64,000 nt of DNA, taken from positions 124,001 through 188,000 of the forward strand of contig NZ_FORH01000002.1 of assembly GCF_900113955.1 (NCBI RefSeq), in the 5' to 3' direction. Of this stretch, positions 3,019 through 59,561 are shown piece by piece. The notes under the pieces were generated by a model that was given only the letters and a program-made list of their open reading frames with translations, was not told where the DNA came from and made no database searches. The translations under genes were made by a program, and so were the position numbers. Numbering within the stretch: the stretch's first letter is position 1; every line of letters begins with the position of its first letter. Source of the DNA: Celeribacter neptunius. GTDB taxonomy: Bacteria; Pseudomonadota; Alphaproteobacteria; Rhodobacterales; Rhodobacteraceae.

Positions 3019-3047
3019 CTCACTCGATTCTGACACGGTCGCGCGGC

Positions 3048-32346: not shown

Positions 32347-32382
32347 GCCTGAGATTTGGGCGCCGGCGCTGTTTCATCAGGC
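32347..32382. terminator. Possible bidirectional terminator between marR and iacG
   Basis: GCCTGA (32347-32352) and TCAGGC (32377-32382) are complementary arms around a GC-rich self-complementary core (GCGCCGGCGC) in the 32 bases between the convergent genes. The right arm includes the iacG stop. No T-run is seen. Confidence 0.3.
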
Positions 32383-32880: not shown

Positions 32881-32883
32881 GGC

Positions 32884-36381: not shown

Positions 36382-36428
36382 GTCAGCTCCTTTCATCGGG
36401 CTCGCCTCTCGGGCGGAGCCGCATCAGT

Positions 36429-36791: not shown

Positions 36792-36877
36792 GTCTTTGCT
36801 CCGCTTTGGGGGATGTCTGGGGGGGGAATGTCTGGTTCAGATCTGGTTTGGCTCCAGGATAGCCCGGCGCCACCCCG

Positions 36878-44600: not shown

Positions 44601-44709
44601 CGCCTTGGGAAAATTCGAGCTGAAAGCCGGAGCCGCCGGCGACCGGCACACCGCCCCCGGCGATCAGCGCCTCGGCCTCCGCAAGTGTCTCGGGGCGCGA
44701 GATCCTCAT
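41599..44709 (-). CDS. Fused FAD and molybdopterin subunits of xanthine-dehydrogenase-family enzyme
   Basis: This 1036-residue protein joins a CoxM-type FAD domain (residues 1 to about 265; VAGGSGFQLEF, RRLATLGGNLAWG) to a CoxL-type molybdopterin domain. The latter has GGAFGGKDE, GGAFRGFGANQ and the catalytic Glu in GAGELGIGA. Known relatives hydroxylate purines or other N-heterocycles and aldehydes. Between about residues 695 and 719 is an insertion of five pentads ending Glu-Phe/Met/Ile. The start at 44709 overlaps the previous stop. Neighbouring deaminases favour a purine-type substrate, by inference. Confidence 0.9.
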   Translation of the reverse strand: MRISRPETLAEAEALIAGGGVPVAGGSGFQLEFSQGAVAPAHYVRIGHLLPMGIYREIDGLCIGAGTPLEEIRQAGLPLLSEACRDVAAPNIRRLATLGGNLAWGKGCLIPALIALDATVETREGEVNILDYLAEPKGIVLYLTLRPLARQTWRKIGLRQAFTASIIASAGAMTLERGKITAVRLAVGGGATPPQRLQTVEDWLIGQTPEAVDRDILRERLEQAISAPDCAFRSARYRKRVAAAALSAGLFGLPERHAIRPVSRPKATIPPELTELSRADGGARWHTRPDMPAKIRGELTYLTDRRSPDMLVGRILRAGRPHARILSIDTAKAEALDGVAAVVTHRDIKGLNGFGILFQDQPALCADKVRYTGDPVAAVAAVDAETAARALALIEVIYEDLPVVTSVEAALAEESPAVHERGNLVTEVIHDKGDLAAGWAEAVHVVEDTYVTPRQMHGFMETEGGWAAPEGEGLVVCVGGQHGARDRMQLSRILALPEDKLRVITSPTGGAFGGKDELTVQPALALLAQKSGRPVRLHLSRAESVEAGIKRNPMWLRMKTGCDARGRIVAQEVEVLSDSGAYASLSPGVLETAMEHVVGPYEVGNFHARGRLAYTNNGIGGAFRGFGANQMTFAIECQIDRLAEKVGLDPIAMRRLNLRRPGSPGVLGQKVAPSERLIEMLDAAGASPLWRGGETGPKEFGPKEFGAEEMRSEEIGPEEIAGVGMALNYQGNGLGTIPEDEADFALALKGGKIEARCGLDEIGQGMVASLHAAISTRLGCGRDDVSAIFGDTKRAPDSGSTTASRGGYVVWRGVEETAPGFTAALLERASELLHRPIEELAIVPGGIGEARLNQPKPVLSFAELGEIAPVQAHYAFPKSDYFKGNARFIFAFGATLARVAVNRITGALRILDLEMHTAAGPVIDMASYLGQMEGGLVQGVGFTLTEDMPMVKGRPVAKNFDTYMMPGVRDVPGTMRVTAHEGLDPGDPFGPRGAGELGIGAVTPAIANAVADAIGRWPVVTPFPPEMILDLMEAAR
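42551..42625. repeat. Five tandem 15-bp units inside the molybdenum hydroxylase gene
   Basis: On the plus strand the units are ATCTCCTCCGGCCCA, ATCTCCTCCGACCTC, ATCTCCTCTGCCCCG and AACTCCTTTGGCCCG twice. Read in the gene they encode GPKEF, GPKEF, GAEEM, RSEEI, GPEEI. They keep frame and add an acidic loop. Confidence 0.9.
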
Positions 44710-45545
44710 GCCGCCTCCGGCGTGGTGGTGCCGAAGGTAAGGCCCTTCTGCTTGAGCCATCGGCGGTAGGCGACCGAGGAACTGTCGGCCCGGGTCGGGA
44801 TCTCGGCACGTGCCTCGAGCGGCAACAAGAGCGGGCGCTGGTTTTCGACGATGATCCGATCCTGCAGGAAGATCACCTGTTCAAAGCGCAAAAGCTGGGT
44901 CTGGGTGGCCTGCTGATCGGTCAGGTACATGACCGGGATGGCGCGCACGAGATCCTCTTCGATCGGATGGATGAACAGCGCAATCGCATCCTCCACCCCT
45001 TCCCGGTCGGGCACGACGCGGTAGAGCATGACCACAAAGGGCGACGGCACCCGGTAAGTGAGCTGGGCAAATTCACCATCGGGGCGGGTACTGGTCATCT
45101 GCGGCTGAAAGAATTTGCAGTTGGTGGCCCAGACCTCGTCCACCTCATGGCGGATTTCGGATTTGTAGCCCAGGACCTCGGTATGCGGTTCCGAGCCGAG
45201 AATATCGGTGTGGACAAAGGGGAAATGCGCCATATCGAGGAAATTCTCGACCACGCGCAGGCCGGAGGCCCGCATTTTCACCCAGCCGCAGGGCACGAAA
45301 CGCCGGGTCGCATCTTCGCTCTCGGCAATGTCGAAAATCTCCTTGTTCGGCGTACCGAGCGTGGTCCAGAGCACCCCGAATTTCTCCCGCACCGGCAGGG
45401 CGACACCGTTGCGGGTGACGCATTTGCCCGGCCCCACGGTGATCGGATGGCCCAAGAGCTTGGTCTCTTCGGCCCGGGTGAGATCGGTGAGACTCGCTAC
45501 CGCGTACCAGTCATTGAGTGCCACGGGATCCTGCGTTCCGGTCAT
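44706..45545 (-). CDS. Rieske-less Rieske-oxygenase catalytic subunit, NdmC-like
   Basis: This 279-residue protein has the mononuclear iron motif NFLDMAHFPFVH (Asp104, His107, His112) of VanA/NdmA-type oxygenases. It lacks both CxH and CxxH cluster loops. The N-terminus keeps the flanking strands of a Rieske domain (DWYAVASLTDL and EKFGVLWTTLG) with the cluster-binding part missing. Known NdmC, the N7-demethylase of caffeine catabolism, has this architecture and about this length, and takes electrons from a Rieske domain on another protein. A close paralogue is at 58668-59561. The substrate is inferred to be a methylated purine. Confidence 0.85.
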   Translation of the reverse strand: MTGTQDPVALNDWYAVASLTDLTRAEETKLLGHPITVGPGKCVTRNGVALPVREKFGVLWTTLGTPNKEIFDIAESEDATRRFVPCGWVKMRASGLRVVENFLDMAHFPFVHTDILGSEPHTEVLGYKSEIRHEVDEVWATNCKFFQPQMTSTRPDGEFAQLTYRVPSPFVVMLYRVVPDREGVEDAIALFIHPIEEDLVRAIPVMYLTDQQATQTQLLRFEQVIFLQDRIIVENQRPLLLPLEARAEIPTRADSSSVAYRRWLKQKGLTFGTTTPEAA

Positions 45546-45586
45546 TGATCGCTCCTTTCGCGTGCTTCACGCCTCAATCGGTCCAC

Positions 45587-46957
45587 TCAATCGGTCCATT
45601 GCGCCGTGCCGCCGCCATTGGCATCGAGCCAGGTCTGACGGCGGGCGAAATGCCCGGGCGCGAGCCGGGTGACCCGCTCGATGATCTCGCCCATGTCGCC
45701 GGTGACCAGACGGCCCTCATCGACACAGATCTCGCCATTGACCATGGTCATGCGCACATCGCCGCCGCGCACGGCATGGACCAGATTGTGCTGCAGGTTG
45801 AACCAGCGCCCATCGGGGAAAAACGGCGTCATCCGCGGGCTCTTGCCGTCCACGGCGATGATATCGGCCTTTTTGCCCACCTCCAGCGATCCGGTGATGG
45901 CGTCGAGCCCAACCGCCTTGGCGCCCAGAGAGGTGGCCATTTCCAGAACCGACCAGCTGTCCATCGCCGCCGCGTCCAGCTCGCGCAGCTTGCCCTTGAG
46001 CGAGGCGGTTTTCATCTCTTCGAACATGTCGAAATTGTTGTTTTCCTTCTCGCCATCGGTGCCAATCCCCACGGGTACACCGGCGGCGAGCATTTCCTTG
46101 ATCGGGGCGATGCCGGAAGCGAGTTTCATGTTCGACACCGGGTTATGGGCGACCGAGACATTGTAATCGGCGATCATCTCCACCTCTTCGGGCGAGAACC
46201 AGACCGCATGCGCGAACATCGCCAGCGGCGTCTCGAAGAAGCCGAGATCGCGGAACACCTCCATCGGTCTCTTGCCATAGCGCGTATCGAACTCCGCCAG
46301 TTCGATCTCCGCCTCGGAACAATGGGTGTGAAAGGGCACGCCGTGCTTTTTCGACAGGTCGATGGCGCGCTGCTGTCCCGCCGCGTCGGCGTAGAACAGA
46401 TGCTCGAGCCCGACCCAGACATTGACCCGGCCCTGCGCCTTGCCATGCCAGCGTTCGATCAGCCCCTCGTTCATGTCGAGCCTGTCGAAATAATCATATT
46501 CCGGATGTTCGCCGACGTAAGGCACGGCGATCAGCCGGTTGCCCAATACATCGGCAGCCCGCGCCGAGCCGTCCATATAGCGCCACATATCGACCACGGT
46601 GGTGGTGCCGGAAAGCAGGCTCTCGGCATAGGCGAGATAGCTTGCGGCCTCGGCCTCTTCCGGCAGGAGCACCCGGTGCATCGGGTTGATATGCTGGGTC
46701 AGCCAGTCCCAGACCGGCAGGTGCTCGGCGGTGCCGCGCAGAAAGCCGGAATGGGCATGGGCGTTGATCAGCCCGGGCATCAGCACGGCGCGTCCGAAAT
46801 CCTTGACCGGCACATCCGGATGGGCGGCGATCACCTCCGCCTTTGGCCCGATCATCGCGATCTCGTCGCCCTTGACCAGAATGGCCCCGTCGCAGAGGGT
46901 CTCGCGCTCCGGATTCATGGTCACGATGGCTTCGGCGCTCAGGATCAAATCGCTCAT
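45587..46957 (-). CDS. Amidohydrolase, MTA/SAH-deaminase or TrzN-like (COG0402)
   Basis: This 456-residue metal-dependent hydrolase has the metal ligands NAHAH, FHTHCSE and GTDGEKENNN. The family deaminates aminopurines and s-triazines. It is distinct from the two deaminases on the plus strand, giving the locus three COG0402 enzymes. It overlaps the GMC oxidoreductase stop by ATGA. The substrate is probably an amino-purine or similar heterocycle. Confidence 0.88.
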   Translation of the reverse strand: MSDLILSAEAIVTMNPERETLCDGAILVKGDEIAMIGPKAEVIAAHPDVPVKDFGRAVLMPGLINAHAHSGFLRGTAEHLPVWDWLTQHINPMHRVLLPEEAEAASYLAYAESLLSGTTTVVDMWRYMDGSARAADVLGNRLIAVPYVGEHPEYDYFDRLDMNEGLIERWHGKAQGRVNVWVGLEHLFYADAAGQQRAIDLSKKHGVPFHTHCSEAEIELAEFDTRYGKRPMEVFRDLGFFETPLAMFAHAVWFSPEEVEMIADYNVSVAHNPVSNMKLASGIAPIKEMLAAGVPVGIGTDGEKENNNFDMFEEMKTASLKGKLRELDAAAMDSWSVLEMATSLGAKAVGLDAITGSLEVGKKADIIAVDGKSPRMTPFFPDGRWFNLQHNLVHAVRGGDVRMTMVNGEICVDEGRLVTGDMGEIIERVTRLAPGHFARRQTWLDANGGGTAQWTD

Positions 46958-48477
46958 GCATCCTCCAGGATGAATTGGGCCGCCCGCTCGCCGATCATGG
47001 TGACCGGCGCATGGGTGTGACAGGCGGGAATTTCGGGAATGACGGAGGCATCCGCGACCCAGAGGCCGCGAATGCCTTTGACGCCCAACCTCGGGGACAC
47101 GGGGGCGTCATCATCGGCACCCATCTGGACGGTGCCGCAACAGTGGAAGAAGGTCGAGCACGACCGCCGCACGAAGGTCTCGATGTCATCAGTGCTCCGC
47201 GGCGCGATATGGTCCTTGAAAAACGGCTGAAACCCGTCGGAGCCGACCATCTCCATCAGGAATTCGACCCCTTGGATCAGTGCTGTCAGGTCGCGCGGAT
47301 CGGACAGGAGATTGGGCTGAATGTCGAGCGCTGCGGCCGGATCGGCCGAGGTGAGACGGATCTCTCCTCGGGAATGGGACCGCATCACGCCGAGACCGAT
47401 GGCAAAGACATCGTCGCCCTCAAGATCGTACTGCTCCCAGAGCGCGGGCACCGCGGAACGGCCCTGAACCGGAAAGGCCAGCAGATCGGCCTGCGGCAGC
47501 TCAGCTTTGGATTTCCAGATCGTCAGCGTACCACCGCCATTGCCCTTCATCGGACCCAAGGGGGTGGAAGCCCGGAAATTCAGCGCCCGGAGCAAAGGGT
47601 GGTCCTGAAGGTTCTGGCCAACGGCCTCGGATTTGAGCCGCACAGCAATGCCAAGCCGCGCCAGCGCCGCCTCCGACCCGATGCCCGAGAGCATCAACAG
47701 CCGCGGGGTCTCGAGCGCGCCGGCCGCCAGAATGACGCCGATGCTTGCGGTCAGATCGGCAACGCCTTCGGGCCCGCTGACTTGCACGCCGGTAGCCCGA
47801 TCCCCCTCGAAAATCAGCCCGAGCGCCAAAGTCTCCGTCAGCACGGTGAGCCGCTCCGAGCCGATGATCGGCGCGAGATAGGCCGCGGCAGAGGTGTGCC
47901 GCCGCCCGGCTGCATCGATGTTGAAATTCGCCAGCCCGACGCCCAGCGGCTCCGGCCCGTTCGGGTCCTCGATCACCGGCAGCCCCATGGCCGCGCCGCC
48001 TTTCAGCATGGCCTGCGTCAGCGGATGATCCGCGTCGGGGCGAGTGATTTCCAGCGGGCCGGAGCCACCGCGCAAGGCCCTCTCACCGCCTTGCCAGCGC
48101 TCGCTTGCCTTGAACGCCGGCAGACAGTCCTCCCAGGACCAGCCCGGCGCCACGGCGTCCCAGCGGGCATAATCGGCCGGCACACCGCGATACCACATCA
48201 TCGCATTGGTGGCCGAGGAGCCGCCCAACCCCTTGCCACGCGGAATGGCGATGTCCCGGCCCAGAATGCGCTCTGTCGGCGTGTAGTGATGGCCCCAGTC
48301 CCAGGCCCCGCTTTGCAGGCCGAACCATTGCGACGGGTCTTCGATCTCGGCCACGCCGAGGGTGGACCTGCCGGCCTCGATCACCGCGACCCTAGCGCCG
48401 GCGTCATGCAGGCGACGGGCCACCGCCGCACCGCCGGAGCCGGAACCAATCACGATATAATCGAAGCCCTCTGGCAT
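46954..48477 (-). CDS. GMC-family FAD oxidoreductase
   Basis: This 507-residue choline/alcohol oxidoreductase-type enzyme has the FAD motif DYIVIGSGSGGAAVARRL, GKGLGGSSATNAMMWYRG and the C-terminal catalytic His region (FFHCCGTVQMG; LWVADASVIPEIPACHTHAPVTMIGE). It oxidises an alcohol to an aldehyde. The start at 48477 has GAGG upstream; an ATG five codons earlier is possible. It has no signal peptide. Confidence 0.9.
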   Translation of the reverse strand: MPEGFDYIVIGSGSGGAAVARRLHDAGARVAVIEAGRSTLGVAEIEDPSQWFGLQSGAWDWGHHYTPTERILGRDIAIPRGKGLGGSSATNAMMWYRGVPADYARWDAVAPGWSWEDCLPAFKASERWQGGERALRGGSGPLEITRPDADHPLTQAMLKGGAAMGLPVIEDPNGPEPLGVGLANFNIDAAGRRHTSAAAYLAPIIGSERLTVLTETLALGLIFEGDRATGVQVSGPEGVADLTASIGVILAAGALETPRLLMLSGIGSEAALARLGIAVRLKSEAVGQNLQDHPLLRALNFRASTPLGPMKGNGGGTLTIWKSKAELPQADLLAFPVQGRSAVPALWEQYDLEGDDVFAIGLGVMRSHSRGEIRLTSADPAAALDIQPNLLSDPRDLTALIQGVEFLMEMVGSDGFQPFFKDHIAPRSTDDIETFVRRSCSTFFHCCGTVQMGADDDAPVSPRLGVKGIRGLWVADASVIPEIPACHTHAPVTMIGERAAQFILEDA

Positions 48478-48497
48478 GGGGTTTGACCTCATCCGCC

Positions 48498-49106
48498 TCA
48501 GTTGTGCTCCGACGGGCCCATGATGGTGATCCCTTCGGTCTTTTCGACATGGCGCACGAAGATGTATTTGTCCTCGCGCCCGTCGGAATGTTTGCGTTTG
48601 ATTTCCGGCTGCACCGTACCGGCGACCTTCGCCACCACCACATAAGGCGTGTCGGATTTCAGACCGGCCTCGCAATGGGCGTCGAACTCTTCGAGCGTGG
48701 TGGCGGTATAGGCATGATCGATGCCCGAGGCCCGCGCGATCCCGGCGAGATCCACCCGCCCCGAGGCAGTATGGGTCTTTGGCCCGCCAATCGATTGATA
48801 TTGCTCGTTATCCCAGACCACAACAAAGAGGTTCTTCGGCTGTTCATTGCCCAGGGTGGCGAGAATGCCGAGGTTGAACAGCAGCCCGCCATCGGTGTCG
48901 AGCGAGACGATCTGCCGCTCTGGCAGGCCACAGGCAAGCCCGAAGGCCTGCGGCGTCACACAGCCGAGCTGTTGCTGAAACAGCGAGGCTTCGCGCATAT
49001 GCGGCGCGGCGTTGTACCATTCGTCGACGGAGGCCCCGAGCGACAGGATCACCAGCTCGTCGGAGAGCCGCGCGGCGAGTTTGCTCATACAGTCGAAACG
49101 TTTCAT
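48498..49106 (-). CDS. ThDP-dependent decarboxylase, ThDP-binding (beta) subunit
   Basis: This 202-residue protein matches the C-terminal ThDP-binding half of 2-keto-acid decarboxylases. The diphosphate/magnesium motif is seen as DTDGGLLFNLG, with the later Asn in WDNEQYQSIGG. Such split enzymes include sulfopyruvate decarboxylase (ComDE); phosphonopyruvate decarboxylase is the fused form. It overlaps the alpha gene by ATGA. The substrate is unknown. Confidence 0.83.
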   Translation of the reverse strand: MKRFDCMSKLAARLSDELVILSLGASVDEWYNAAPHMREASLFQQQLGCVTPQAFGLACGLPERQIVSLDTDGGLLFNLGILATLGNEQPKNLFVVVWDNEQYQSIGGPKTHTASGRVDLAGIARASGIDHAYTATTLEEFDAHCEAGLKSDTPYVVVAKVAGTVQPEIKRKHSDGREDKYIFVRHVEKTEGITIMGPSEHN

Positions 49107-49603
49107 CGCACGAAACTCCCGGACAGGGCCACGGCCGTGTGGTAATAAGAGGAATAGGCCAGCTCATAGGCATCGACGATGGCCTGTTCGATCCGCTCTT
49201 CCTCGCGCTCCACCACATAGGGGATGCGCAGCGCCTTGAGCACCGGCTCCATGGTGGTCCCGTGCGGCACGGCCCACCAGTTGTTCTCGCCCATATCGCC
49301 GCGATAGCTCATCAGCATCACCACCGGGATACCGGCGCCGAGCCCCATGCGGGCCAAGGGTTCGACCGAGGCGCGCAGACCGGAGTTCTCCATCACCAGC
49401 GCCGCGCGTTGCCCCGACAGGAACACACCGCCGCAGATCGCGGCCCCCTCGCCCTCGTTGGTCACCTGAATGGTTCGGATATCCGGATCGGCATCAAGCG
49501 CCGGGTAAAGCTCCTTGAACAAGCTGTCGGGGAGATAACAGACGAGGGTGACACCGGCGCGCTTGAGCCCCCGGATCACCGCCTCAACGGCACTTTGTTG
49601 CAT
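49103..49603 (-). CDS. ThDP-dependent decarboxylase, pyrimidine-binding (alpha) subunit
   Basis: This 166-residue protein matches the N-terminal PYR half of 2-keto-acid decarboxylases, with the catalytic Glu in TNEGEGAAICGG. MENSGLRASVEPL and SYRGDMGENNWW are typical of the sulfopyruvate/phosphonopyruvate decarboxylase group. A strong ribosome site (AGAGGA) precedes it. It is the first gene after lysR in the minus-strand operon. Confidence 0.83.
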   Translation of the reverse strand: MQQSAVEAVIRGLKRAGVTLVCYLPDSLFKELYPALDADPDIRTIQVTNEGEGAAICGGVFLSGQRAALVMENSGLRASVEPLARMGLGAGIPVVMLMSYRGDMGENNWWAVPHGTTMEPVLKALRIPYVVEREEERIEQAIVDAYELAYSSYYHTAVALSGSFVR

Positions 49604-49689
49604 CTTTTTCCTCTGGCGTTTCTTGTTGGAATTCCCATGTGTTAGGCACAGCCTGTCAGGAAAAAGTTGTTCCGAAAAGACGATAATAA

Positions 49690-49706
49690 TCGAACGAAAT
49701 GTTCGA
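49690..49706. promoter_or_regulatory. Inverted repeat, possible LysR operator
   Basis: TCGAAC-GAAAT-GTTCGA is a perfect 6-bp dyad in the 115 bases between lysR and the decarboxylase alpha gene. It would suit control of the downstream operon by the neighbouring LysR protein. Confidence 0.4.
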
Positions 49707-49718
49707 CTTTACGCAACA

Positions 49719-50642
49719 CTAGGCTTTCATCGCCTCGAGCATGGAGGCGAGCGTTGCCGCCAGCGCCTGCGCCGCTTCCGACACCTCGCCTTTCGGCCGT
49801 GACACCAGCGACAGACGACGCAGCCCGAGCCCCGGATCGGTCAGCGGGATGAACACCAGCTGGCCGCGGGCGATTTCGGCCTGCACCCCGATCTTGGTCT
49901 GCAGAATCGTGCCGAGCCCGCGGGTCGCCAGATCGATCATCAGCCCGATGGAATTGGTACGGGCACGGCGGGAGAACTCGACGAAGGAGCCGGAGAACAT
50001 CTGTTCGACCGAGCTGCCGAGCGTCAGCGAACCGTCCGAGAGGATCACCCGCTCGCCCGCCAGATCATAGCCCTTGAGCTTGCCCTGCAACTTGATCAGC
50101 GGACTGCCCGGCGGCACCAGAACGCCAAGCGGCAGCGCCACCGATGTCAGCCGCCGGGCATTGCGCGGCACCCGCACATCAAAGGCCAGCGCCAGATCGG
50201 CTTCGCCCTGATGCACCAGATCGACCGCCTCCTGCGAACCGACGACACGGACATCGACGCTGATCTCGGGATGGCGCACCCAATAGCCCGCGAGCACGTC
50301 GGGCAGGATGCCGCGCGCCGCGCTTTCGATCACCGCCACGGTCACCGTGCCCCGCCGGAGCCCTTGCAGATCGCCGATCTCGGTCACCGCGCGGTTCATT
50401 TCCACCGCGGATTGCTTGATGTGATATTCCAGCAGCTCGCCGGCCGAGGTCAGGCGCAGCCGTTGTTTGGTGCGCTCGAACAGCGGCGTGCCGAGATCGT
50501 CCTCGAGCTGCTTGATCGCCCGCGAGATCGAGGACGGCGCGACATTGAGCGTCAGCGCCGCCTGACGGATCGAGCCGAGACGCGCCACCAGAGCGAAATG
50601 GTGGACGCGCGAGGACACAAGACCGAGACGATGAAGATCCAA
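49719..50642 (-). CDS. LysR-family transcriptional regulator
   Basis: This 307-residue protein has an N-terminal winged helix (FALVARLGSIRQAALTLNVAPSSISRAIKQLEDDLGTPLFER) and a periplasmic-binding-fold effector domain. The start is a TTG at 50642, chosen because AGGAG lies five bases upstream and overlaps the stop of the GST-like gene. It sits in mid-operon between the GST-like gene and the decarboxylase genes. Its ligand may be a purine-related metabolite of this locus. Confidence 0.9.
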   Translation of the reverse strand: MDLHRLGLVSSRVHHFALVARLGSIRQAALTLNVAPSSISRAIKQLEDDLGTPLFERTKQRLRLTSAGELLEYHIKQSAVEMNRAVTEIGDLQGLRRGTVTVAVIESAARGILPDVLAGYWVRHPEISVDVRVVGSQEAVDLVHQGEADLALAFDVRVPRNARRLTSVALPLGVLVPPGSPLIKLQGKLKGYDLAGERVILSDGSLTLGSSVEQMFSGSFVEFSRRARTNSIGLMIDLATRGLGTILQTKIGVQAEIARGQLVFIPLTDPGLGLRRLSLVSRPKGEVSEAAQALAATLASMLEAMKA

Positions 50643-50650
50643 GGCGGCTC

Positions 50651-51271
50651 CTAATGGTAATCCGGGATGCCCGGCATGGTGATGAAGCCCTCGATCTGAC
50701 GCATCCGCCGCGCCCAGAGCCTGAGCTGCGGGAATTCATCGTGATCGAGGTTGAAATCGCGGCTCAGCGCAAAGGCCGGGAAAAGCGCGAGATCGGCGAG
50801 GCTCGGCGTCGCACCGGCGACGAATCCTTCGCCTTTGAGCGCTTGCCGGGTGAGATGATCGTCGAGAACGCGAAACAGCTCCCGGACCTTGGCACGCAGG
50901 GATGCGACATCGCCCGGCGCATCGAGAAGCGCCACGGCGCGTGCCTCGGCGGCCAGGGCGAGATCGCGGCAGGCAAAACCGAGCCAGTCGAACATCCGCG
51001 CCCGGGCCGCCGGATCTTTCGGCAGAAAACGCTGTTCCGAATCCTTTTCCGCCAGATAGATCAGAATCGCCGAAAGATCGCGCAGGGTCAGATCGCCGTC
51101 CTGGAGGATCGGCAGACGCCCCAGTGGATTAAGCTCCAGATAGGCGGGGGACTTTTCCTCCGCGCCCGGGAAAGCATCGACGTTCACCAGCTCCAATGCC
51201 TGATTTGTGCAAGACGCCAGCAGGCGTACCCGATAGCAATCTTCAAAAAGATCGTAATTGTGCAGGATCAT
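50651..51271 (-). CDS. Glutathione-S-transferase-like protein, possible NdmE counterpart
   Basis: This 206-residue protein has a thioredoxin-like N-terminal domain (LFEDCYRVRLLASCTNQALELVNVD; NPLGRLPILQDGDLTLRDLSAILIYLAE) and an all-helical GST C-domain (GATPSLADLALFPAF). In caffeine degradation the GST-like NdmE is needed to hold NdmC and the Rieske-bearing NdmD together. Co-localisation here with a Rieske protein and two Rieske-less oxygenases suggests the same structural job, though a classical GST role is not excluded. It overlaps the Rieske gene by ATGA. Confidence 0.82.
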   Translation of the reverse strand: MILHNYDLFEDCYRVRLLASCTNQALELVNVDAFPGAEEKSPAYLELNPLGRLPILQDGDLTLRDLSAILIYLAEKDSEQRFLPKDPAARARMFDWLGFACRDLALAAEARAVALLDAPGDVASLRAKVRELFRVLDDHLTRQALKGEGFVAGATPSLADLALFPAFALSRDFNLDHDEFPQLRLWARRMRQIEGFITMPGIPDYH

Positions 51272-51906
51272 GCGACCGCCTCCCGGGCTTCGACCTGCCG
51301 CCGCAGCGCCTCGCACCAGTCGAGCAGCATTGGTTTCGCCGAGTCGGGCGTGCCCTCCGGCAGGGTGATATGGAGCGCGGAACGGCGCTCACTCACGGCC
51401 TGAACCCCGATGCGCAAGGCGACGCCCGCATGTTCGATCGCGATCATGGAACCGGTGCGTTCAGCCCCGAGTGCGGCAATCACATCGGCCAGCGGCGCAT
51501 CGAGATAGAGCGAGCGCAGCCCCTCCATCACGGGCAATTCCGACGCGGCTGCGGGCTCCGAGCCGAGCGGCAGATGCGCCCAGATCATGCCGCCACTTTC
51601 GGCCACGCCATAGCGGGCGACACAGATCGATTTCGGCACCTCGAGATCCGGATGCGCCGGAATATACTGGCAGGTGCCGCTCTCGTCATATTCCCAGCCG
51701 TGGTAAAGGCAGGCGATGTGATCGCCCCGCACAAAGCCGAAACTCATTTTCATGCCGCGATGCGGGCAGCGATCTTCCCAGGCATGGGCCGTGCCAGAGG
51801 TGTCGCGCCAGACGACGATCTCCGCCCCCTCCGCAACCACGCCCGCCGAAGTCCCCGGCTCGATCATTTTCGACAGCGCAACGGGCACCCAGCCGGTCTG
51901 CGTCAT
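51268..51906 (-). CDS. Stand-alone Rieske [2Fe-2S] protein with C-terminal extension
   Basis: This 212-residue protein has an N-terminal Rieske domain of oxygenase type with ligands in CPHRG (Cys47, His49) and CLYHGWEY (Cys66, His69). It has no mononuclear iron site. The C-terminal about 90 residues form an unassigned alpha/beta extension. The two catalytic-only oxygenases in the locus lack exactly this domain, so it is the likely electron donor to them. Unlike NdmD it has no FMN or NADH domain, so a reductase must come from elsewhere. Confidence 0.87.
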   Translation of the reverse strand: MTQTGWVPVALSKMIEPGTSAGVVAEGAEIVVWRDTSGTAHAWEDRCPHRGMKMSFGFVRGDHIACLYHGWEYDESGTCQYIPAHPDLEVPKSICVARYGVAESGGMIWAHLPLGSEPAAASELPVMEGLRSLYLDAPLADVIAALGAERTGSMIAIEHAGVALRIGVQAVSERRSALHITLPEGTPDSAKPMLLDWCEALRRQVEAREAVA

Positions 51907-52172: not shown

Positions 52173-52539
52173 GATCTTCTTTCACGGGATCTGACAGAAT
52201 TCCTTTGAATTCCTCCCTTTTTCGGGAGAGCCACAGCATGACGCGCCGCAGCATCGACAGTAAGACGATGGAAACATCCGCCGTCAAGTGTTGTCATGAA
52301 AGCAACATAAAGGTGTCGAAATTCGCTCTATTCAGCGCCCTAGACATTTGGAATCGTGCTCTCATCAAGACAACAGATGGGCATGTCAGACCGCCCGAGA
52401 TCGAACACGAGTTTCACGTTTCCGGTTCGCCGGAAACGGAGTGTCCACGCACGTTCATTTGCGGCCCGCCGGGGACAACCCCGCTGCCAAAACCGGGGAA
52501 CCGGCGCGGCCCGCACCAACAGACAAGAGGTTTCTGCCA
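52173..52539. promoter_or_regulatory. Divergent control region of the purine-type locus
   Basis: These 367 bases lie between the divergent operons and hold no credible gene. Visible elements are a direct repeat (GAATTCCT twice, 52199-52216) and a CTCCC/GGGAG hairpin next to it on the left side. A TGTTG/CAACA dyad lies around 52289-52307. A structured GC-rich leader (52419-52520) precedes the transporter operon. Confidence 0.5.
52419..52440 (+). promoter_or_regulatory. UUCG-tetraloop hairpin in leader of transporter operon
   Basis: A perfect 9-bp stem (CGTTTCCGG / CCGGAAACG) closes on a TTCG loop 100 bases before the binding-protein start. A second small stem (CGGGG-ACAA-CCCCG) follows near 52470-52490. 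This may be part of a structured 5' leader, a riboswitch or an attenuator; I could not match it to a known class. Confidence 0.5.
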
Positions 52540-53664
52540 ATGATATCCACCAAATCCCTGTCCCGCCGCGGCTTTCTCAACATGGGTGCGGCTGCCGGCG
52601 CCGGGTTGCTGCTGCCGAAAACCGGGCTGATCACACCGGCCCATGCCGCAGGCCCGCTCGCCCCGGTGGCCGAGGAAGACGCGCATATCGCCTTTGGCCA
52701 TACCGGCCCGACTTCGGATGAGGGCTGGACCTGGGCGCATGATCAGGGGATGAAAGCGGTCGCGGCGGCTTTCCCGAAACTGCGCACCTCTTACGTCGAG
52801 AGCATTCCCTATTCCGCCGATGCCACCCGGATCTATCGCCAATTCGTCGCCGATGACGCCTGCATGGTCTTTGCCACGTCGAACTATGGCGATTTTCTTT
52901 ATGACGTGGCCAAGCGCGCGCCCGATGTGGCCTTCTATGAATGCGACGGCCGCAACCCGCTCGACAATCTCGGGACCTATTACGTCTCGCATTGGTACCC
53001 GTCCTATGTTGCGGGCATCGCGGCGGGCGCGATGTCGCCCTCGGGCAAGCTGGGCTATGTCGCCTCTTTCCCGGTGCCGTCGGTCTATTCCGGCACCAAC
53101 GCCTTTTTGATGGGCGCGCGCACGGTGAACCCGGAGGCCACGCTTCAGACCATCGTGATCAACAGCTGGTTCGACCCGCAGGCCGCGACCCAGGCCGGCA
53201 CCGCACTGATCGACAACGGTTGTGACGTGCTCTTTGGCATCATGGATGAGGCGGGCTATCTGCAGGTAGCCGAGGAACGCGGCGCCAAGGCCGTGATGTG
53301 GAACACCGATCTGCGCCGCTACGGCCCGAATGCCTATATTTCCTCGATCATCGTCGATTTCAAAGCCTTCTATGTCGAACAGGTGCGCCGTCGCCTCGTC
53401 GGCGAATGGACCCCGACCTATGATCTCCTGCCTTTCGGCGGCGGCGTCGATGTCGATGCCTGGGGTGAAACCGTTCCGGCCGATGTGGCGGCCAAGGCCG
53501 ATGCGGTGAAAGCCTCGATCATGGACGGCTCGTTCAACCCGTTCTCGGGCGAAATCAAGGACAGCAAGGGCAATGTCAAAGTCGCCAAGGGCGAGACCAT
53601 GAGCGAGCAAGAGCTCTATCACTGGAACTGGTCGATCGAGGGCGTCTCCGGTCTCGACGCCTGA
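52540..53664 (+). CDS. BMP-family ABC transporter substrate-binding protein
   Basis: This 374-residue periplasmic protein has a Tat-type signal (SRRGFLNMGAAAGAGLLLP, ending AHA) and the basic-membrane-protein (PF02608) fold: FGHTGPTSDEGWTWAHDQG, VFATSNYGDF, GKLGYVASFPVPSVYSGTNAF. The family binds nucleosides and purines. The start at 52540 has GAGG upstream. It is the first gene of the plus-strand operon. Confidence 0.92.
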   Translation: MISTKSLSRRGFLNMGAAAGAGLLLPKTGLITPAHAAGPLAPVAEEDAHIAFGHTGPTSDEGWTWAHDQGMKAVAAAFPKLRTSYVESIPYSADATRIYRQFVADDACMVFATSNYGDFLYDVAKRAPDVAFYECDGRNPLDNLGTYYVSHWYPSYVAGIAAGAMSPSGKLGYVASFPVPSVYSGTNAFLMGARTVNPEATLQTIVINSWFDPQAATQAGTALIDNGCDVLFGIMDEAGYLQVAEERGAKAVMWNTDLRRYGPNAYISSIIVDFKAFYVEQVRRRLVGEWTPTYDLLPFGGGVDVDAWGETVPADVAAKADAVKASIMDGSFNPFSGEIKDSKGNVKVAKGETMSEQELYHWNWSIEGVSGLDA

Positions 53665-53678
53665 TCGGATCTCGCAAG

Positions 53679-55253
53679 ATGACGGACATTCCCGATCCGA
53701 TCCAACAGCGTCTCGGGCTCGCGCCCGGGACGCCGCCCATTCTCGCCCTCAAGGGGGTGAGCAAGTATTTCCCCGGGGTGATCGCCAATGAGGCGGTCGA
53801 TCTCGAGGTCTACCCCGGTGAGATTCACGCGCTTCTGGGCGAGAATGGCGCCGGCAAATCGACCCTGATGAATATCGTCACCGGCATTTACAAGATGGAT
53901 GCCGGCGAGGTGATCGTCGAAGGCGAGGCACGCGACTTCGGCTCGCCCACCGATGCGATCGAGGCCGGGATCGGCATGGTGCACCAGCATTTCAAACTGG
54001 TGCGCGCCTTTACCGTGGCCGAAAACATCCATCTCGGCTGGCCCGACACGCCGAAGCGGATTTCGCGCCGGGTGCTCGAAGCGCGCACCTCGGCCCTCTC
54101 CGACACATTGGGCCTGGCGGTCCAGCCCGAGGCGGTGGTGGCGGATCTTTCGACCGGCGAACAGCAACGTGTCGAGATCCTGCGGGTTCTGGCGCGCGAT
54201 GCCAAGCTGCTCATTCTCGACGAGCCCACCGCCGTGCTGACCCCGGAAGAGGCGCGCGAGCTGTTCGTGGCGCTGCGGGCCTTTGTGGCGCGTGGCAATG
54301 CGGTGATCTTCATCTCGCACAAGCTCGACGAGGTGATGGAGATTTCCAACCGCGTCACGGTGCTGCGCGGCGGGCGCAAGGTGGCGACGGAATGGACCGA
54401 ACGTTGCTCCGAAAAGAGCCTCGCCCAGATGATGGTCGGGCGCGAGATTGTCCTGACCGAAGCCGGCCAGCGCGCGCCCCTGCCCAAGGACACGCCCCCC
54501 TGTCTCTCGCTCGCCAATGTCAGCCTGACAAGCGATCAGGGCACGGTGCTGAAAGATATTTCCCTCGATCTGCGCCCCGGTGAAATCCTCGGCATCGCCG
54601 GGGTCGCCGGCAATGGCCAGCGCGAATTGACCTATGTGATGACCGGGCTTGCGACGCCCAGCGCCGGCACGATCACCCTGGACGGCAAAGATGTCACCCG
54701 GATCGGCGCCCGTGCCATGGCCGAGAAAGGCATCGGGCATATCCCCGAAGACCGGCTGCAGTCCGGCATGGCGCCGACGCTGTCGATCACCGACAATGCG
54801 GTATTGCGCGAATACGGCCAGCCGCCTCTGACCCGCAAGGGCTGGTTCTCGCCCCGTGGCGCCGGCAATCTGGCGCGCGAGATCGCCAAGGCGGCCGAGG
54901 TCATGGTGCCGGATTTCGCCATGCCCGCGCGCAATCTCTCTGGCGGCAACCAGCAACGTCTTGTGGCCCGGCGCGAAATGCGCATCGCCGACAAGATCCT
55001 GATCGCCGCCTACCCGTCGCGCGGGCTCGATGTCGGGGCGATCAACACGATGATGCGCTATTTCGTCGAGCTGCGCGATCAGGGCGTCGCCGTGGTGCTG
55101 ATTTCCGAAGAACTGGAAGAGTTGATGAATTTCTCAGACCGGATCGCCGTGATGTTTCATGGTGAGATCATGGGCATGGTCGCCACCGAGGGCGCGGATG
55201 TCGAGGAAATCGGGCTGATGATGGGCGGCAAACGCCGGGAGGTCGCGGCATGA
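53679..55253 (+). CDS. ABC transporter ATPase with two nucleotide-binding domains (nucleoside/purine type)
   Basis: This 524-residue protein has a first domain with Walker A GENGAGKSTL, signature STGEQQRVEIL and Walker B LLILDEPTAVL. The second domain has a degenerate Walker A (GVAGNGQREL), signature LSGGNQQRLV, and AYPSRGLD at the Walker B/D-loop region. This is the usual RbsA/YufO layout for sugar and nucleoside importers. Confidence 0.93.
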   Translation: MTDIPDPIQQRLGLAPGTPPILALKGVSKYFPGVIANEAVDLEVYPGEIHALLGENGAGKSTLMNIVTGIYKMDAGEVIVEGEARDFGSPTDAIEAGIGMVHQHFKLVRAFTVAENIHLGWPDTPKRISRRVLEARTSALSDTLGLAVQPEAVVADLSTGEQQRVEILRVLARDAKLLILDEPTAVLTPEEARELFVALRAFVARGNAVIFISHKLDEVMEISNRVTVLRGGRKVATEWTERCSEKSLAQMMVGREIVLTEAGQRAPLPKDTPPCLSLANVSLTSDQGTVLKDISLDLRPGEILGIAGVAGNGQRELTYVMTGLATPSAGTITLDGKDVTRIGARAMAEKGIGHIPEDRLQSGMAPTLSITDNAVLREYGQPPLTRKGWFSPRGAGNLAREIAKAAEVMVPDFAMPARNLSGGNQQRLVARREMRIADKILIAAYPSRGLDVGAINTMMRYFVELRDQGVAVVLISEELEELMNFSDRIAVMFHGEIMGMVATEGADVEEIGLMMGGKRREVAA

Positions 55254-56305
55254 GCACGATCCGCCTGCAACGCATGCCGATTGCCCCGGCGCGCATCGCC
55301 CTCGTGCTGCGGCTCCTGTCGGTGGTGCTGGCACTTTTGACCACGGCGATCCTGCTCTGGGCGACCGGGCGCGATCCGATCGCTCTGGGCGCCAAGGTCC
55401 TCTCCTCGACCTTCGGCTCGTCCTTTGGCCTCGAAGATCTGGCGCTCTTGTTTTCGCCGCTGATCTATTGCGGGCTGGCGGTGGCCGTCGCCCTGCGCAT
55501 CGGCGCCTGGAACATCGGCGCCGAGGGGCAGTTCAATTTCGGTGCCTTTTGCGCCACGGGAATCGCGCTCTTCGTGCCCGGCCCGACATGGCTGATGCTG
55601 CCGCTGATGGCGCTTGCGGGCATGATCGGCGGGGCACTGTGGATCCTGGTGCCGACGCTGGCGCGGGCCTATGCCGATGTCTCGGAGCTGATCACCACGC
55701 TATTGATGAATTTCATCGCCATGCTACTGGTCTATTGGGTCGCCACCGGGCCTTGGCTCGACCCGTCGGGCATGGCGCTCGCGACCACCGCGCGGCTGCC
55801 CGTCTCGGTGCCGCCGATCTGGGGCATCGTCCATTGGGGCCTGCCGGTGGCCGTGATGCTCGCCATCGCGCTGGCGCTCGTCTTCACCTACACCCGCTGG
55901 GGCTATGAGGTGCGGATCGCCGGCGCCAATCCCGGCGCTGCGGCCTATGCCGGCATGCCGGTGAAACGCCAGCTCATCGCCGTGATGCTGCTGTCGGGCG
56001 CGCTGGCGGGTCTTGGCGGCATGATGGAAGCGGCCGGAACGGTCGGCCGGCTGCAAGGCGGGATTTCCAACAATTACGGCTATATCGGCATCATGGTGGC
56101 GGTGCTCGCCCGCGCCGCGCCCTTGGGCGTGCTGGCCACGGCGTTTTTCATGGCGGTTATCCTGAACGGTGGCATCGTCCTGCAATCGCAGGGGTTGACC
56201 ACGCACACCGTTCTGGCGGTGACGGGTCTGATCCTGCTCTATGCCGCGATCGGCGACGAGGCGGCACATTACAAGATCCTGCGCAACAAGACGGGGGAAA
56301 GCTGA
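55250..56305 (+). CDS. ABC transporter permease (nucleoside/purine type)
   Basis: This 351-residue inner-membrane protein has about ten hydrophobic segments and the family motif ALRIGAWNIGAEGQFNFGAF. It pairs with the next gene's product as a heterodimeric channel. It overlaps the ATPase stop by ATGA. Confidence 0.92.
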   Translation: MSTIRLQRMPIAPARIALVLRLLSVVLALLTTAILLWATGRDPIALGAKVLSSTFGSSFGLEDLALLFSPLIYCGLAVAVALRIGAWNIGAEGQFNFGAFCATGIALFVPGPTWLMLPLMALAGMIGGALWILVPTLARAYADVSELITTLLMNFIAMLLVYWVATGPWLDPSGMALATTARLPVSVPPIWGIVHWGLPVAVMLAIALALVFTYTRWGYEVRIAGANPGAAAYAGMPVKRQLIAVMLLSGALAGLGGMMEAAGTVGRLQGGISNNYGYIGIMVAVLARAAPLGVLATAFFMAVILNGGIVLQSQGLTTHTVLAVTGLILLYAAIGDEAAHYKILRNKTGES

Positions 56306-56306
56306 G

Positions 56307-57242
56307 ATGGATATTCTCGCGGGTCTCATTCAAACGGCCTTTCTCGCCGGGGGCGTGCTGGCTCTGGCGGCGCTTGGCGAAGTGCTCGCCGAACGCGTCG
56401 GCGTGGTGAACCTCGGCGTCGAAGGGCTCATCGCGCTCGGCGCCATGTCGGCGGTCGCGACCGTGGTGGGCACCGGCTCGCCCTGGCTCGGGCTCATGGT
56501 GGCGCTGCTGGTCGGTCTGGGCGCGGGGATGGTCTTTGCCACCGCCACCGTCCTCATTCGCGCCAATCAGGTGCTCTGCGGTCTGGCGCTGACCTATATC
56601 GGCACCGGCATGGCGGCGACCCTCGGCAAGCCGTTTTCCGGCTCACCGGTGCCCGCCACATTCGACGATATCCAGATCCCGATCCTCTCGGATCTGCCGT
56701 TTTTTGGACGTGCATTTTTCAGCCATAACATTCTGGTCTATGTGATCTTTCTCGCCCTGCCCTTGGCGCTTCATTACCTGATGTTCTACACCCGGCACGG
56801 GCTCAACATGCGCGCCGTGGGCGAGAACCCCGCCGCCGCCGATGCCGCCGGCATTCCGGTGATGAAAATGCGCTTCTGGTACACCTCGCTGGGCGCATCC
56901 CTCGCCGCCGGTGCCGGGGCCTATCTCACGCTCTCCTTCGTACCGAGCTGGTCCGAGGGCGTGGTGGCGGGCCGTGGCTGGATCGCCGTGGCTCTGGTGA
57001 TCTTCGCGGGTTTCCGACCGGTGAACGCGGTGCTGGCCGGGCTGCTCTTCGGCTTCGTCACGGCGCTCGGCTTTGTCGGGCAGGCCCGCAACTGGCCGGT
57101 TGCCGCCTCGATCCTGTCGATGCTGCCGTATCTGGGCACCATGGCGCTGATGATCGTGCCGGTGATCACCTGGCAGCGCATGCGCCGGCTGATGGCGGCG
57201 CCCGAGGGCATCACCCAACCCTATTTTCGGGATCAACGATGA
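56307..57242 (+). CDS. ABC transporter permease (nucleoside/purine type)
   Basis: This 311-residue inner-membrane protein has EVLAERVGVVNLGVEGLIALGAM, the motif matching its partner, and about eight or nine hydrophobic segments. The start at 56307 follows the previous stop by one base; the frame open further upstream lies within that gene. Confidence 0.92.
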   Translation: MDILAGLIQTAFLAGGVLALAALGEVLAERVGVVNLGVEGLIALGAMSAVATVVGTGSPWLGLMVALLVGLGAGMVFATATVLIRANQVLCGLALTYIGTGMAATLGKPFSGSPVPATFDDIQIPILSDLPFFGRAFFSHNILVYVIFLALPLALHYLMFYTRHGLNMRAVGENPAAADAAGIPVMKMRFWYTSLGASLAAGAGAYLTLSFVPSWSEGVVAGRGWIAVALVIFAGFRPVNAVLAGLLFGFVTALGFVGQARNWPVAASILSMLPYLGTMALMIVPVITWQRMRRLMAAPEGITQPYFRDQR

Positions 57243-58657
57243 GCACCACCCTTCTGAAACACATCTCGCATCTCGCCACATTCGACGGCGCGCACCGCGA
57301 CGCCGGCACTGAAATCTCCGACGGCTATGTGCTGCTCCGCGACAATGTCATCACGGCCTGCGGGCCGATGACGGAGTGCAGCGATGCGACCTGTCGCGCC
57401 GCCGAACGCGTGCTCGACATGTCGGATCACGTGGTGATGCCCGGCATGGTCAACACGCACCATCATTTCTATCAGAACCTCACCCGGGTGATGGTGCAGG
57501 ACGACGCGCTTTTCGTCTGGCTCAAGACGCTCTACCCGATCTGGGCGCGGCTCGATGATCGGGCGATGGCGACCGCCTCACGCATGGCGATGGCGGAGCT
57601 GATCATGTCCGGCTGCACCACCAGCTCGGATCATCAATATATCATGCCCAATGATTGCACGCTCGACACGCCCATTCGCGTGGCCCGCGAAATGGGGCTG
57701 CGGTTTCACGCCGCGCGTGGCGCGATGAGCCGGGGCGAGAGCAAGGGCGGTTTGCCGCCCGACAGCTGTGTCGAAGAAGAGGAGGACATCCTCAAGGACG
57801 CCGAGCGGCTGATCAATCGCTATCACGACATGTCGGATCACGCGATGACGCGGATCGTGCTGGCGCCGTGCTCGGCCTTTTCGGTCACGCAAGGGTTGAT
57901 GAAGGACGCGGCGGCGCTGGCGCGCTCCCATGAAGGCGTGCGGCTGCATTCGCATATCGCCGAGGTGCTCTCGGAAGAGGAATATTGCCTCGCAACCTAT
58001 GGCATGCGCTCGGTCGCCTATGCCGAAAGCTGTGACTGGCTCGGTCCTGATGTCTGGTTCGCTCATGCGATCTTTCTCAACGATGCCGAGATCCGCGCCT
58101 TTGCCGAGAGCGGTACGGGGGCAACCTTCTGCCCCTCGGCGCATATGCGCTGCGGCCTTGGCATCATGCGGGCGCGCGAGATGCTCGACGCCGGCGTCAC
58201 CATCGGTCTCGGGGTCGATGGTTCGGCCTCGAATGACACGTCGAACATGTTCTCCGAGGTCCGGTTTGCACAATTCCTGCAACGCGTCGCCCCGGATCGC
58301 TATCTCTCGGAGACTCCCGGCGGGCGCGGCGGCTTTGGCGGCACACCAGGGGCGCTCTCGGCGCGCGAAGCCCTTTGGATGGCGACCCGCGGCGGCGCCA
58401 AGCTTCTCGGCCGCGACGACATCGGCCAGATCGCCCCGGGCAAATCCGCCGATCTCATCGCCGTCAAACGCACCCGTCTGGGCATGGCCGGGACCCAGCG
58501 CGATCCGCTCGCCGCCCTGGTGATGTGCGGGCCGTTCGATGTCGATTATTCTTTCATCAACGGTCAGCCGGTGGTTGAAAAAGGCACATTCACCCGTCTG
58601 GATCTCGACGCCGCTCTCAGCGATCATGCGGCAACGATGGATCGCATTTACGCCTGA
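57239..58657 (+). CDS. 8-oxoguanine deaminase
   Basis: This 472-residue amidohydrolase has metal ligands NTHHHFYQNLTR, HSHIAE and GVDGSASND, and the family segments LYPIWARL, GCTTSSDHQY and RGAMSRGESKGGLPPD. The enzyme turns 8-oxoguanine into urate. The loop CPSAHMRCGLGIM differs from the more usual CPSSN-type sequence, so specificity may be shifted. It overlaps the permease stop by ATGA, which links uptake directly to deamination. Confidence 0.87.
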   Translation: MSTTLLKHISHLATFDGAHRDAGTEISDGYVLLRDNVITACGPMTECSDATCRAAERVLDMSDHVVMPGMVNTHHHFYQNLTRVMVQDDALFVWLKTLYPIWARLDDRAMATASRMAMAELIMSGCTTSSDHQYIMPNDCTLDTPIRVAREMGLRFHAARGAMSRGESKGGLPPDSCVEEEEDILKDAERLINRYHDMSDHAMTRIVLAPCSAFSVTQGLMKDAAALARSHEGVRLHSHIAEVLSEEEYCLATYGMRSVAYAESCDWLGPDVWFAHAIFLNDAEIRAFAESGTGATFCPSAHMRCGLGIMRAREMLDAGVTIGLGVDGSASNDTSNMFSEVRFAQFLQRVAPDRYLSETPGGRGGFGGTPGALSAREALWMATRGGAKLLGRDDIGQIAPGKSADLIAVKRTRLGMAGTQRDPLAALVMCGPFDVDYSFINGQPVVEKGTFTRLDLDAALSDHAATMDRIYA

Positions 58658-58667
58658 GGAACATGAG

Positions 58668-59561
58668 ATGACCCAAGCCTGCCCCCCGGAACTCGACCAG
58701 GCCACGCTCGATCAATGGTATTGCATCCAGAACCTCGCCGAAATTCCCGCCGCGGGCATGACGACCCGGCTTCTGGGGGTCGATCTCGATCTGACCGGAA
58801 GAGAAAGCCCCTCGGTCGTCGCCCAAGAAACAGCAGGGCCGCGCGCCCTGCCCACCCGGCAGCGCTATGGCTATCTCTGGTCCACGCTGGGCAATCCCAA
58901 CACGGATGTGCCCGATATTCCCGAGGCCGACGAAGCAGACCGGCGCTATGTGCCCTGTGGCGTGGTCAAGGTCCGCTCCTCGGCCCCACGGGTGATCGAG
59001 AATTTCCTCGACATGGCGCATTTTCCCTTTGTCCACACCGATATTCTCGGCTCGGAAGAGCATCCCGAGGTCGAGAAATACAAATGCGAGATCCGTCGCG
59101 ATGTCGATGAGGTCTGGGCCACGGATTGCGTTTTTACCCAGCCGCAGGCGGCGAAATCGGCTCAGGGCGCGATCCAGACCGATTACATCTATCGCGTCAC
59201 CACGCCCTTCACCGTGCTCTTGTACAAGACCTGTCCGATCTCAGACAGCCGCTGGGACGTGATCGGGCTTTTCGTGCAGCCGATGGAGCCGGGGCTGTGC
59301 CGGGCCCATCCGGTGATGTTCCTTCTGGACGAAGAGAACAGCGATGCCGATCTCATTGCCTTTCAACAGGTGATCTTCCTGCAGGATCGGATCATCCTCG
59401 AGAACCAGCGGCCGCTGCTGTTGCCGCTCGAGCCGCGCACGGAGACGCCGACCCGGGCCGATGCCTCCTCCATCGCCTATCGCCGCTGGCTCAAGGAAAA
59501 GGGCTGTGTCTACGGCACGACGCTCGGCCCCGCGCTCAATGCAGGCGATCAAGCCGCATGA
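58668..59561 (+). CDS. Rieske-less Rieske-oxygenase catalytic subunit, NdmC-like paralogue
   Basis: This 297-residue protein is a close paralogue of the protein at 44706-45545 (shared ENFLDMAHFPFVHTDILGSE and LQDRII-ENQRPLLLPLE). Iron ligands Asp115, His118 and His123 are present, and the Rieske cluster loops are absent. Flanking strands of the lost domain remain (DQWYCIQNLAEI; QRYGYLWSTLG). The start at 58668 has GAGGA upstream. It lies between two guanine-type deaminases, so a methylated guanine or xanthine is the favoured substrate, by inference. Confidence 0.85.
   Translation: MTQACPPELDQATLDQWYCIQNLAEIPAAGMTTRLLGVDLDLTGRESPSVVAQETAGPRALPTRQRYGYLWSTLGNPNTDVPDIPEADEADRRYVPCGVVKVRSSAPRVIENFLDMAHFPFVHTDILGSEEHPEVEKYKCEIRRDVDEVWATDCVFTQPQAAKSAQGAIQTDYIYRVTTPFTVLLYKTCPISDSRWDVIGLFVQPMEPGLCRAHPVMFLLDEENSDADLIAFQQVIFLQDRIILENQRPLLLPLEPRTETPTRADASSIAYRRWLKEKGCVYGTTLGPALNAGDQAA

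Follow-up and report, generated by a model that had tools for sequence, protein, structure and literature searches.

The window analyzed here, a 64,000-nucleotide stretch of the Celeribacter neptunius genome (positions 124,001 to 188,000 of NZ_FORH01000002.1, contig C9 among the 18 contigs of this 4.4-Mb genome), encodes a variant of the purine demethylase NdmCDE that has two oxygenases and keeps its Rieske subunit as a free protein. The variant is real, conserved, and widespread, and it most likely acts on modified purines. Four proteins make it up: the oxygenases OX1 (44706 to 45545, minus strand, 279 amino acids [aa]) and OX2 (58668 to 59561, plus strand, 297 aa), a stand-alone Rieske [2Fe-2S] subunit (RIE; 51268 to 51906, minus strand, 212 aa), and a glutathione S-transferase (GST)-like counterpart of NdmE (50651 to 51271, minus strand, 206 aa). 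We put at roughly 60% the probability that these proteins form a heteromeric oxygenase of the NdmCDE kind, in which RIE and GST serve both OX1 and OX2, most likely in the N-demethylation of purines. The initial annotation of the window had placed all four genes correctly and had recognized an NdmCDE-like make-up with a separate Rieske protein, two oxygenases, and a purine-catabolic setting, which the analyses below bear out. It had also described the parts as scattered; the genes lie instead in two compact, divergently oriented operons in which several genes overlap by 4 nt, RIE and GST among them.

Both oxygenases match the Pfam model VanA_C (E = 6e-18 for OX1 and 1.5e-20 for OX2), and neither matches any Pfam Rieske model. 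A motif scan found D-x2-H-x4-H at residue 104 of OX1 and residue 115 of OX2 and C-x-H...C-x2-H in neither, in agreement with the initial annotation, which had both proteins keep the iron site and lack the Rieske ligands. Residues N101, D104, H107, H112, and D229 are invariant in all 47 aligned rows, OX1 and OX2 included. The AlphaFold2 model of OX1 (predicted local distance difference test [pLDDT] score, 84.5) aligned with SxtT in Foldseek at a TM-score by query of up to 0.88, and its residues 1 to 61 form strands from which the cluster ligands are absent. For sequence comparison, we used the complete ndm-like cluster on a plasmid of Pseudomonas putida MT178, in which one product is a near-copy of the PDB NdmB and another of the PDB NdmA; its Rieske-less oxygenase is read from the cluster context as NdmC. 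Identity to this NdmC is 42% for OX1 and 45% for OX2. NdmA and NdmB, the N1/N3 demethylases, share the catalytic fold (Foldseek) and iron-ligand pattern of OX1, but they are full-length Rieske oxygenases in a separate branch, and the MT178 proteins have 20 to 27% identity to OX1 and OX2.

RIE matches the Pfam Rieske model (E = 2e-23), the scan placing its Rieske motif at residue 47 and detecting no iron motif, and the GST-like protein matches several GST models, as had been annotated in both cases. RIE is 36% identical to MT178 NdmD over 108 columns, and the GST-like protein is 36% identical to MT178 NdmE over 205 columns; a RIE profile aligned over its full length with the N terminus of NdmD (hhalign, 100%). 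RIE is thus the counterpart of the N-terminal part of NdmD, and the GST-like protein that of NdmE; RIE would supply the Rieske domain to the oxygenases. The AlphaFold2 model of RIE (mean pLDDT, 94.7) shows, after the Rieske domain, a small second domain built of strands and two helices, which we read as a probable vestige of a catalytic domain. Among full-length Rieske oxygenases, the best Foldseek matches of RIE by E-value were SxtT and GxtA (TM-score by query length of up to 0.77, in gapped alignments of 262 to 283 columns with a root mean square deviation of 3.8 to 6.4 Å). SxtT/GxtA are the best PDB match for RIE and OX1 alike, by sequence as well as by Foldseek E-value, but each is a single full-length protein. 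The models suggest that RIE and the oxygenases go back to copies of a single Rieske oxygenase that degenerated reciprocally, each now without the other's metal site.

NdmCDE, the 7-methylxanthine N7-demethylase of P. putida CBB5, likewise combines a Rieske-less oxygenase of the same branch with a GST-like subunit in a purine setting and carries its Rieske domain in a protein other than the oxygenase. In NdmD, however, this domain is fused to an FNR-type reductase, whereas RIE ends at 212 aa. The window also differs in having two oxygenases per set and no linked reductase (none was matched in the 80 scan loci described below), and OX1 and OX2 lie outside the NdmC subgroup, with Glu in OX1 where NdmC has Gln at a selectivity position. 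A passage of PMC4408171 describes NdmCDE as unique among Rieske oxygenases in that the Rieske domain has moved onto the reductase. The complex is alpha3beta3gamma3 and 360 kDa, according to an excerpt of PMC10380055, and its structure is called unsolved in part of a 2026 paper (PMC13237722). The suggestion that the system was undescribed holds in part: among the matches listed, no title or abstract in the open-access literature reports a free-Rieske version, but ndmCDE homologues in Sinorhizobium and Mesorhizobium had been noted in 2013, as quoted in a passage of PMC4408171.

Phylogenetic analysis placed all 65 Rieske-less rows of a 71-row tree together (support 100/99). In a rebuilt tree of 23 Rieske-less rows and 10 full-length oxygenases (L150 was left out), 23 of 23 Rieske-less rows were set apart by a single branch (100/100; recovered in 100% of 200 bootstrap trees), with NdmC among them and HpxD and nine other full-length oxygenases outside. 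The Rieske-less trait has one origin among the rows sampled. Three oxygenases with an internal stop in the aligned stretch (L032, L080, and L084) and one full-length row (L018) were dropped before counting. OX1 and OX2 group with their relatives in a clade (100/99) whose two halves are each supported, and a joint clade of this group with the NdmC subgroup, the group having been named after the first tree was seen, was rejected (approximately unbiased test, P = 0.010). The comparison with NdmC drawn in the initial annotation holds at the level of the Rieske-less branch, which includes NdmC, and not at that of the NdmC subgroup. We know of no member of this branch with a non-purine substrate.

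Mapped onto the tree, the state of the Rieske partner requires one change for the 11 fused rows (78/75; 76% of 200 bootstrap trees) and two for the 21 free rows, in a branch whose deep forks lack resolution and with the label of one fused row (L145) based on two NdmD-like pieces that are separate. Most simply, and with moderate support, NdmD would be a later fusion, perhaps from a single event, and the textbook fusion would be derived. Variovorax has a third state, with a free Rieske protein and the oxygenase fused to the reductase. In a Leptolyngbya locus (L147), genes for an ABC ATPase and two permeases are followed by one for a full-length Rieske oxygenase (2749 to 3723), which the tree places, with weak support, closest to the Rieske-less branch among the full-length relatives.

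The oxygenases and RIE occur together far more often than expected by chance. Profile searches of 385 genomes of the class, the window's own included, recovered OX from 8 genomes and a RIE-type protein from the same 8 (P = 9e-17 assuming independent genomes, which class genomes are not). The RIE profile matched 11 class genomes in all, three of which (G862, G945, and G976) match only to position 113 to 117 of 216 and are read as full-length Rieske oxygenases, in frames of 394 to 427 residues. RIE matches in class genomes directly adjoin the OX match, the window's own locus excepted; two (G845 and G825) may be fused because they lie in frames of 600 and 466 residues, respectively. A family survey of 295 genomes (OX threshold, E = 1e-50) found OX in 21, with a RIE match on the same contig in 20 of these; in G281 and G242, the frames that hold the RIE match are 569 and 642 residues long, respectively, and have NdmD-like matches.

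Gene neighborhoods were compared in the best-scoring 80 of at least 529 relatives, which lie on 73 contigs (7 with two loci) and extend up to 10 kb per side (8 of the 80 are shorter than 18 kb). A gene was counted as present from its best tblastn match at E = 1e-10 and 35% identity, the identity threshold not being applied to RIE and GST. RIE and GST were both present in 76 of these 80 scan loci (30/34 OX1-only, 45/45 OX2-only, and the one locus with both oxygenases), at a distance of 81 nt or less in 71 of the 76. A free Rieske subunit thus seems common and would offer a way to study a Rieske oxygenase whose two metal sites are in separate chains. The purine context of these loci is strong: a relative of guanine, 8-oxoguanine, adenine, or adenosine deaminase is encoded in 56 of the 80 and a BMP protein in 59. 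A smaller operon, RIE-OX-GST-amidohydrolase-BMP transporter, is present in Rhizobium etli CFN 42 and IE4803, and the same order recurs in 8 of 20 further family loci that were picked for having OX (L107 to L112, L116, and L117).

OX1 and OX2 probably differ in substrate, since they differ at a position of known effect. The PDB entries 6ick (NdmA) and 6icp (NdmA QL mutant) are distinguished by N-to-Q and F-to-L changes just before the third iron ligand, and the position of the N-to-Q change sets N1/N3 selectivity in NdmA. This first difference aligns with OX1 residue 222. In an alignment of 107 Rieske-less and 6 NdmA/NdmB-type rows, grouped by best match to OX1 or OX2 with near-copies included, the position is Glu in 38/38 OX1-group rows and Gln in 48/48 OX2-group rows. 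Gln is also found in 2/2 NdmC rows, 2/2 further gamma rows, 10/10 R. etli-type rows, two Sinorhizobium rows (a third has Met), and three of four ungrouped rows (L101 has Tyr), while the NdmA/NdmB-type rows are divided between Asn (three) and Gln (three). At a 90% level within each group, the OX1 and OX2 rows are told apart by only six positions, residue 222 among them. OX1 may prefer a ring or amino N-H donor. Because of this difference, 7-methylxanthine, which the initial annotation had offered as a candidate, is unlikely to be the substrate of both oxygenases; single Glu/Gln exchanges at this position offer a test of substrate choice.

Split sets are also found in demethylation settings, which we count in favor of the NdmCDE-like reading. 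Komagataeibacter nataicola pKNA08 (from kombucha; L104, 10923 to 17474) carries two sets in which a free Rieske protein adjoins a Rieske-less oxygenase and GST, as in the system described here, but it differs from the window in having two such sets, a free VanB-type reductase, two NdmA/NdmB relatives, and, across the 33 kb read, no annotated deaminase. One of the NdmA/NdmB relatives (359 aa) matches the PDB NdmA at 4e-167, the tree puts the other one with NdmA/NdmB, and fghA lies 15 kb away; pKNA08 is a direct test case for split demethylases. In genome G659, RIE-OX-GST-FrmA form one run on one strand. The window's own genome has FrmA relatives and four VanB-type reductases with 37 to 43% identity to the K. 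nataicola reductase. One of these, at 32884 to 33852 in the window, sits in another oxygenase operon and could in principle also serve RIE. Elsewhere in the genome, contig C11 (L141, 7132 to 10951; no PF00355 match on the contig) encodes a GcvT-like protein, a VanB-type reductase, and a protein that resembles parts of a dimethylamine monooxygenase. The C11 reductase was not assigned to the OX1/OX2 system because its neighbors look like a dimethylamine monooxygenase set.

The surroundings of the four genes are as initially annotated, with a BMP transporter set (52534 to 57242), 8-oxoguanine and guanine deaminases, and a molybdenum hydroxylase (41138 to 44709). On the plus strand, the order is BMP transporter-8-oxoguanine deaminase-OX2-guanine deaminase. 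The BMP-type substrate-binding protein (52534 to 53664) resembles annotated BMP proteins in L013 and L015 and has no NCBIfam match at 1e-20; the ABC ATPase and two permeases of the transporter are encoded at 53679 to 57242. The 8-oxoguanine deaminase (57239 to 58657) scores 570.6 bits against NF006055, above the NCBIfam equivalog cutoff of 532, and the guanine deaminase (59558 to 60919), whose gene shares an ATGA overlap with OX2, scores 372.5 bits against TIGR02967, just short of the equivalog cutoff of 375.4.

The minus-strand operon runs RIE-GST-LysR-ThDP(N)-ThDP(C)-GMC-AH1-OX1-molybdenum hydroxylase (two subunits)-aldehyde dehydrogenase. The LysR-type regulator (49719 to 50642) is called from its translation and from similar genes annotated LysR in L013. 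The two halves of a thiamine diphosphate (ThDP) enzyme follow, the N half (49103 to 49603) being sulfopyruvate decarboxylase alpha-like with a score below the cutoff and the C half (48498 to 49106) assigned from model matches. This split enzyme (48498 to 49603) is the best-conserved pair of the OX1 module, with 72 to 96% identity in the loci listed and 80 to 83% in a Rhodococcus locus. The GMC oxidoreductase (46954 to 48489) has its true start a few codons downstream of 48489. AH1 (45587 to 46957), an amidohydrolase of the methylthioadenosine/S-adenosylhomocysteine/5′-deoxyadenosine deaminase kind, and the aldehyde dehydrogenase (39633 to 41141) each reached the cutoff of none of the 25 models shown. 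The molybdenum hydroxylase consists of an XDH-like (xanthine dehydrogenase-like) protein with fused FAD and Mo domains (41599 to 44709), whose start overlaps the OX1 stop (ATGA), and a [2Fe-2S] small subunit (41138 to 41602), called from its translation and an L013 counterpart annotated as (2Fe-2S) binding. We did not accept a xanthine dehydrogenase label for 41599 to 44709, as the best model, pucD, gave 663.8 against a cutoff of 783.65 and none of the 20 listed models reached its cutoff.

Taken as one pathway, the BMP-type transporter would import an N-substituted purine, which OX1 or OX2 would oxidize, most likely by N-demethylation with release of formaldehyde. Electrons from NADH would enter through a reductase whose gene lies elsewhere, reach the [2Fe-2S] cluster of RIE, and go on to the mononuclear iron of OX1 or OX2, with one RIE and one GST serving both catalytic subunits. 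The products of OX2 would enter the neighboring guanine and 8-oxoguanine deaminases, and OX1 would work with the coupled molybdenum hydroxylase on a base offering an N-H donor. The arrangement may have originated in the reciprocal degeneration of two oxygenase copies, the iron site being kept by OX and the cluster by RIE. N-demethylation is the likely reaction, and purine bases with methyl groups or other modifications may be processed by this route. 7-Methylguanine, which occurs in RNA caps and in alkylated DNA, is a guess, and for OX2 only; searches of the open-access literature for its degradation with a Rieske protein, or its bacterial catabolism with guanine deaminase, returned nothing fitting. 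We think it doubtful that a bolder version holds in full, in which OX2 is a 7-methylguanine N7-demethylase feeding guanine deaminase, OX1 uses Glu222 to dealkylate a purine that offers an amino or N-H donor, such as an N6- or N2-substituted base, and the NdmCDE of caffeine eaters arose late, by fusion, from an ancient and widespread modified-base salvage built by reciprocal loss between duplicate Rieske oxygenases.

Several observations weigh against a two-oxygenase demethylase served by RIE and GST. The OX1 model is weakest near the iron ligands (mean pLDDT, 67 and 52; residues 101 to 120). Taken by itself, the C-terminal part of RIE gives a weak match to NdmD (hhalign, 48.5%), so this side of the case for reciprocal loss draws mainly on the fold. 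One genome (G033) has OX and no RIE match, and RIE and GST are missing from 4 of the 80 scan loci, of which L033 and L036 have full flanks. Queries with the reductase, FrmA, and FghA (35% identity, E = 1e-10) were unmatched in all 80 scan loci, and demethylation alone does not account for the ThDP, GMC, and aldehyde dehydrogenase genes. In addition, the full-length relatives include HpxD (about 30% identity over 223 to 230 columns), which is annotated as a xanthine hydroxylase, and hydroxylation is therefore possible. The oxygenases might then hydroxylate purine ring carbons in the manner of HpxDE, for instance converting guanine to 8-oxoguanine for deamination, without demethylating. The empty FrmA and FghA searches would fit such a reaction, as would the 8-oxoguanine deaminase that adjoins OX2 in the window and occurs in 16 of 45 OX2-only loci, and the R. 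etli-type operons, which pair OX with an amidohydrolase nearest to 8-oxoguanine deaminase (372.5 bits, under the cutoff of 532). HpxDE is, like the OX1/OX2 system, a purine-oxidizing member of the Rieske family, but HpxD has its own Rieske motif and no GST annotated within the 6.7 kb read around it, and OX1 and OX2 have neither a Rieske domain of their own nor the linked VanB-type reductase. They also fall in the branch of NdmC, apart from HpxD; split sets near FrmA or fghA exist, and the molybdenum hydroxylase of the locus already provides for ring oxidation. We consider ring hydroxylation unlikely on balance.

The unexplained genes beside OX1 could instead mean that OX1, and not OX2, removes a larger N-substituent, such as the side chain of cytokinins, which are N6-alkyl adenines, with the GMC, ThDP, and aldehyde dehydrogenase enzymes processing the released aldehyde. 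OX1-only scan loci carry GMC in 34/34, the ThDP halves in 31/34, aldehyde dehydrogenase in 26/34, and an adenine-deaminase relative in 16/34 (the relative tested gave 348.7 bits against a cutoff of 472.5, and an adenosine deaminase tested was above one cutoff). Glu222 is specific to OX1, and many hosts are rhizobia. This module is nevertheless also found in Rhodobacter-group bacteria, Rhodococcus, and Komagataeibacter, the ThDP enzyme has no clear role in it, and a literature search on cytokinin and Rieske gave nothing fitting, which leaves a larger substituent quite improbable. Least probable of all is a non-purine N-heterocycle as the substrate, with the purine genes as neighbors by chance or shared regulation. 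Within the stretch examined, 11 of the 80 scan loci have no purine-deaminase, BMP, XDH-like, or AH1 gene; the best PDB match of the XDH-like protein is nicotinate dehydrogenase, and the nearest PDB folds, SxtT and GxtA, act on saxitoxin-type compounds (ligands named in the PDB titles). The first two of these observations count against the demethylase reading as well, but deaminases of several families recur beside OX, and the guanine deaminase gene overlaps OX2 by 4 nt.

Two other regions of the window are of separate interest. A distinct operon at 32377 to 39189, read mostly from translations, encodes a two-subunit Rieske oxygenase, the VanB-type reductase, a short-chain dehydrogenase/reductase, a flavin reductase, an acyl-CoA-dehydrogenase-like protein, and an amidase. 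Positions 3048 to 25365 encode, by translation, several [NiFe]-hydrogenase subunits, maturation proteins, and a sensor kinase, seemingly from more than one hydrogenase set.

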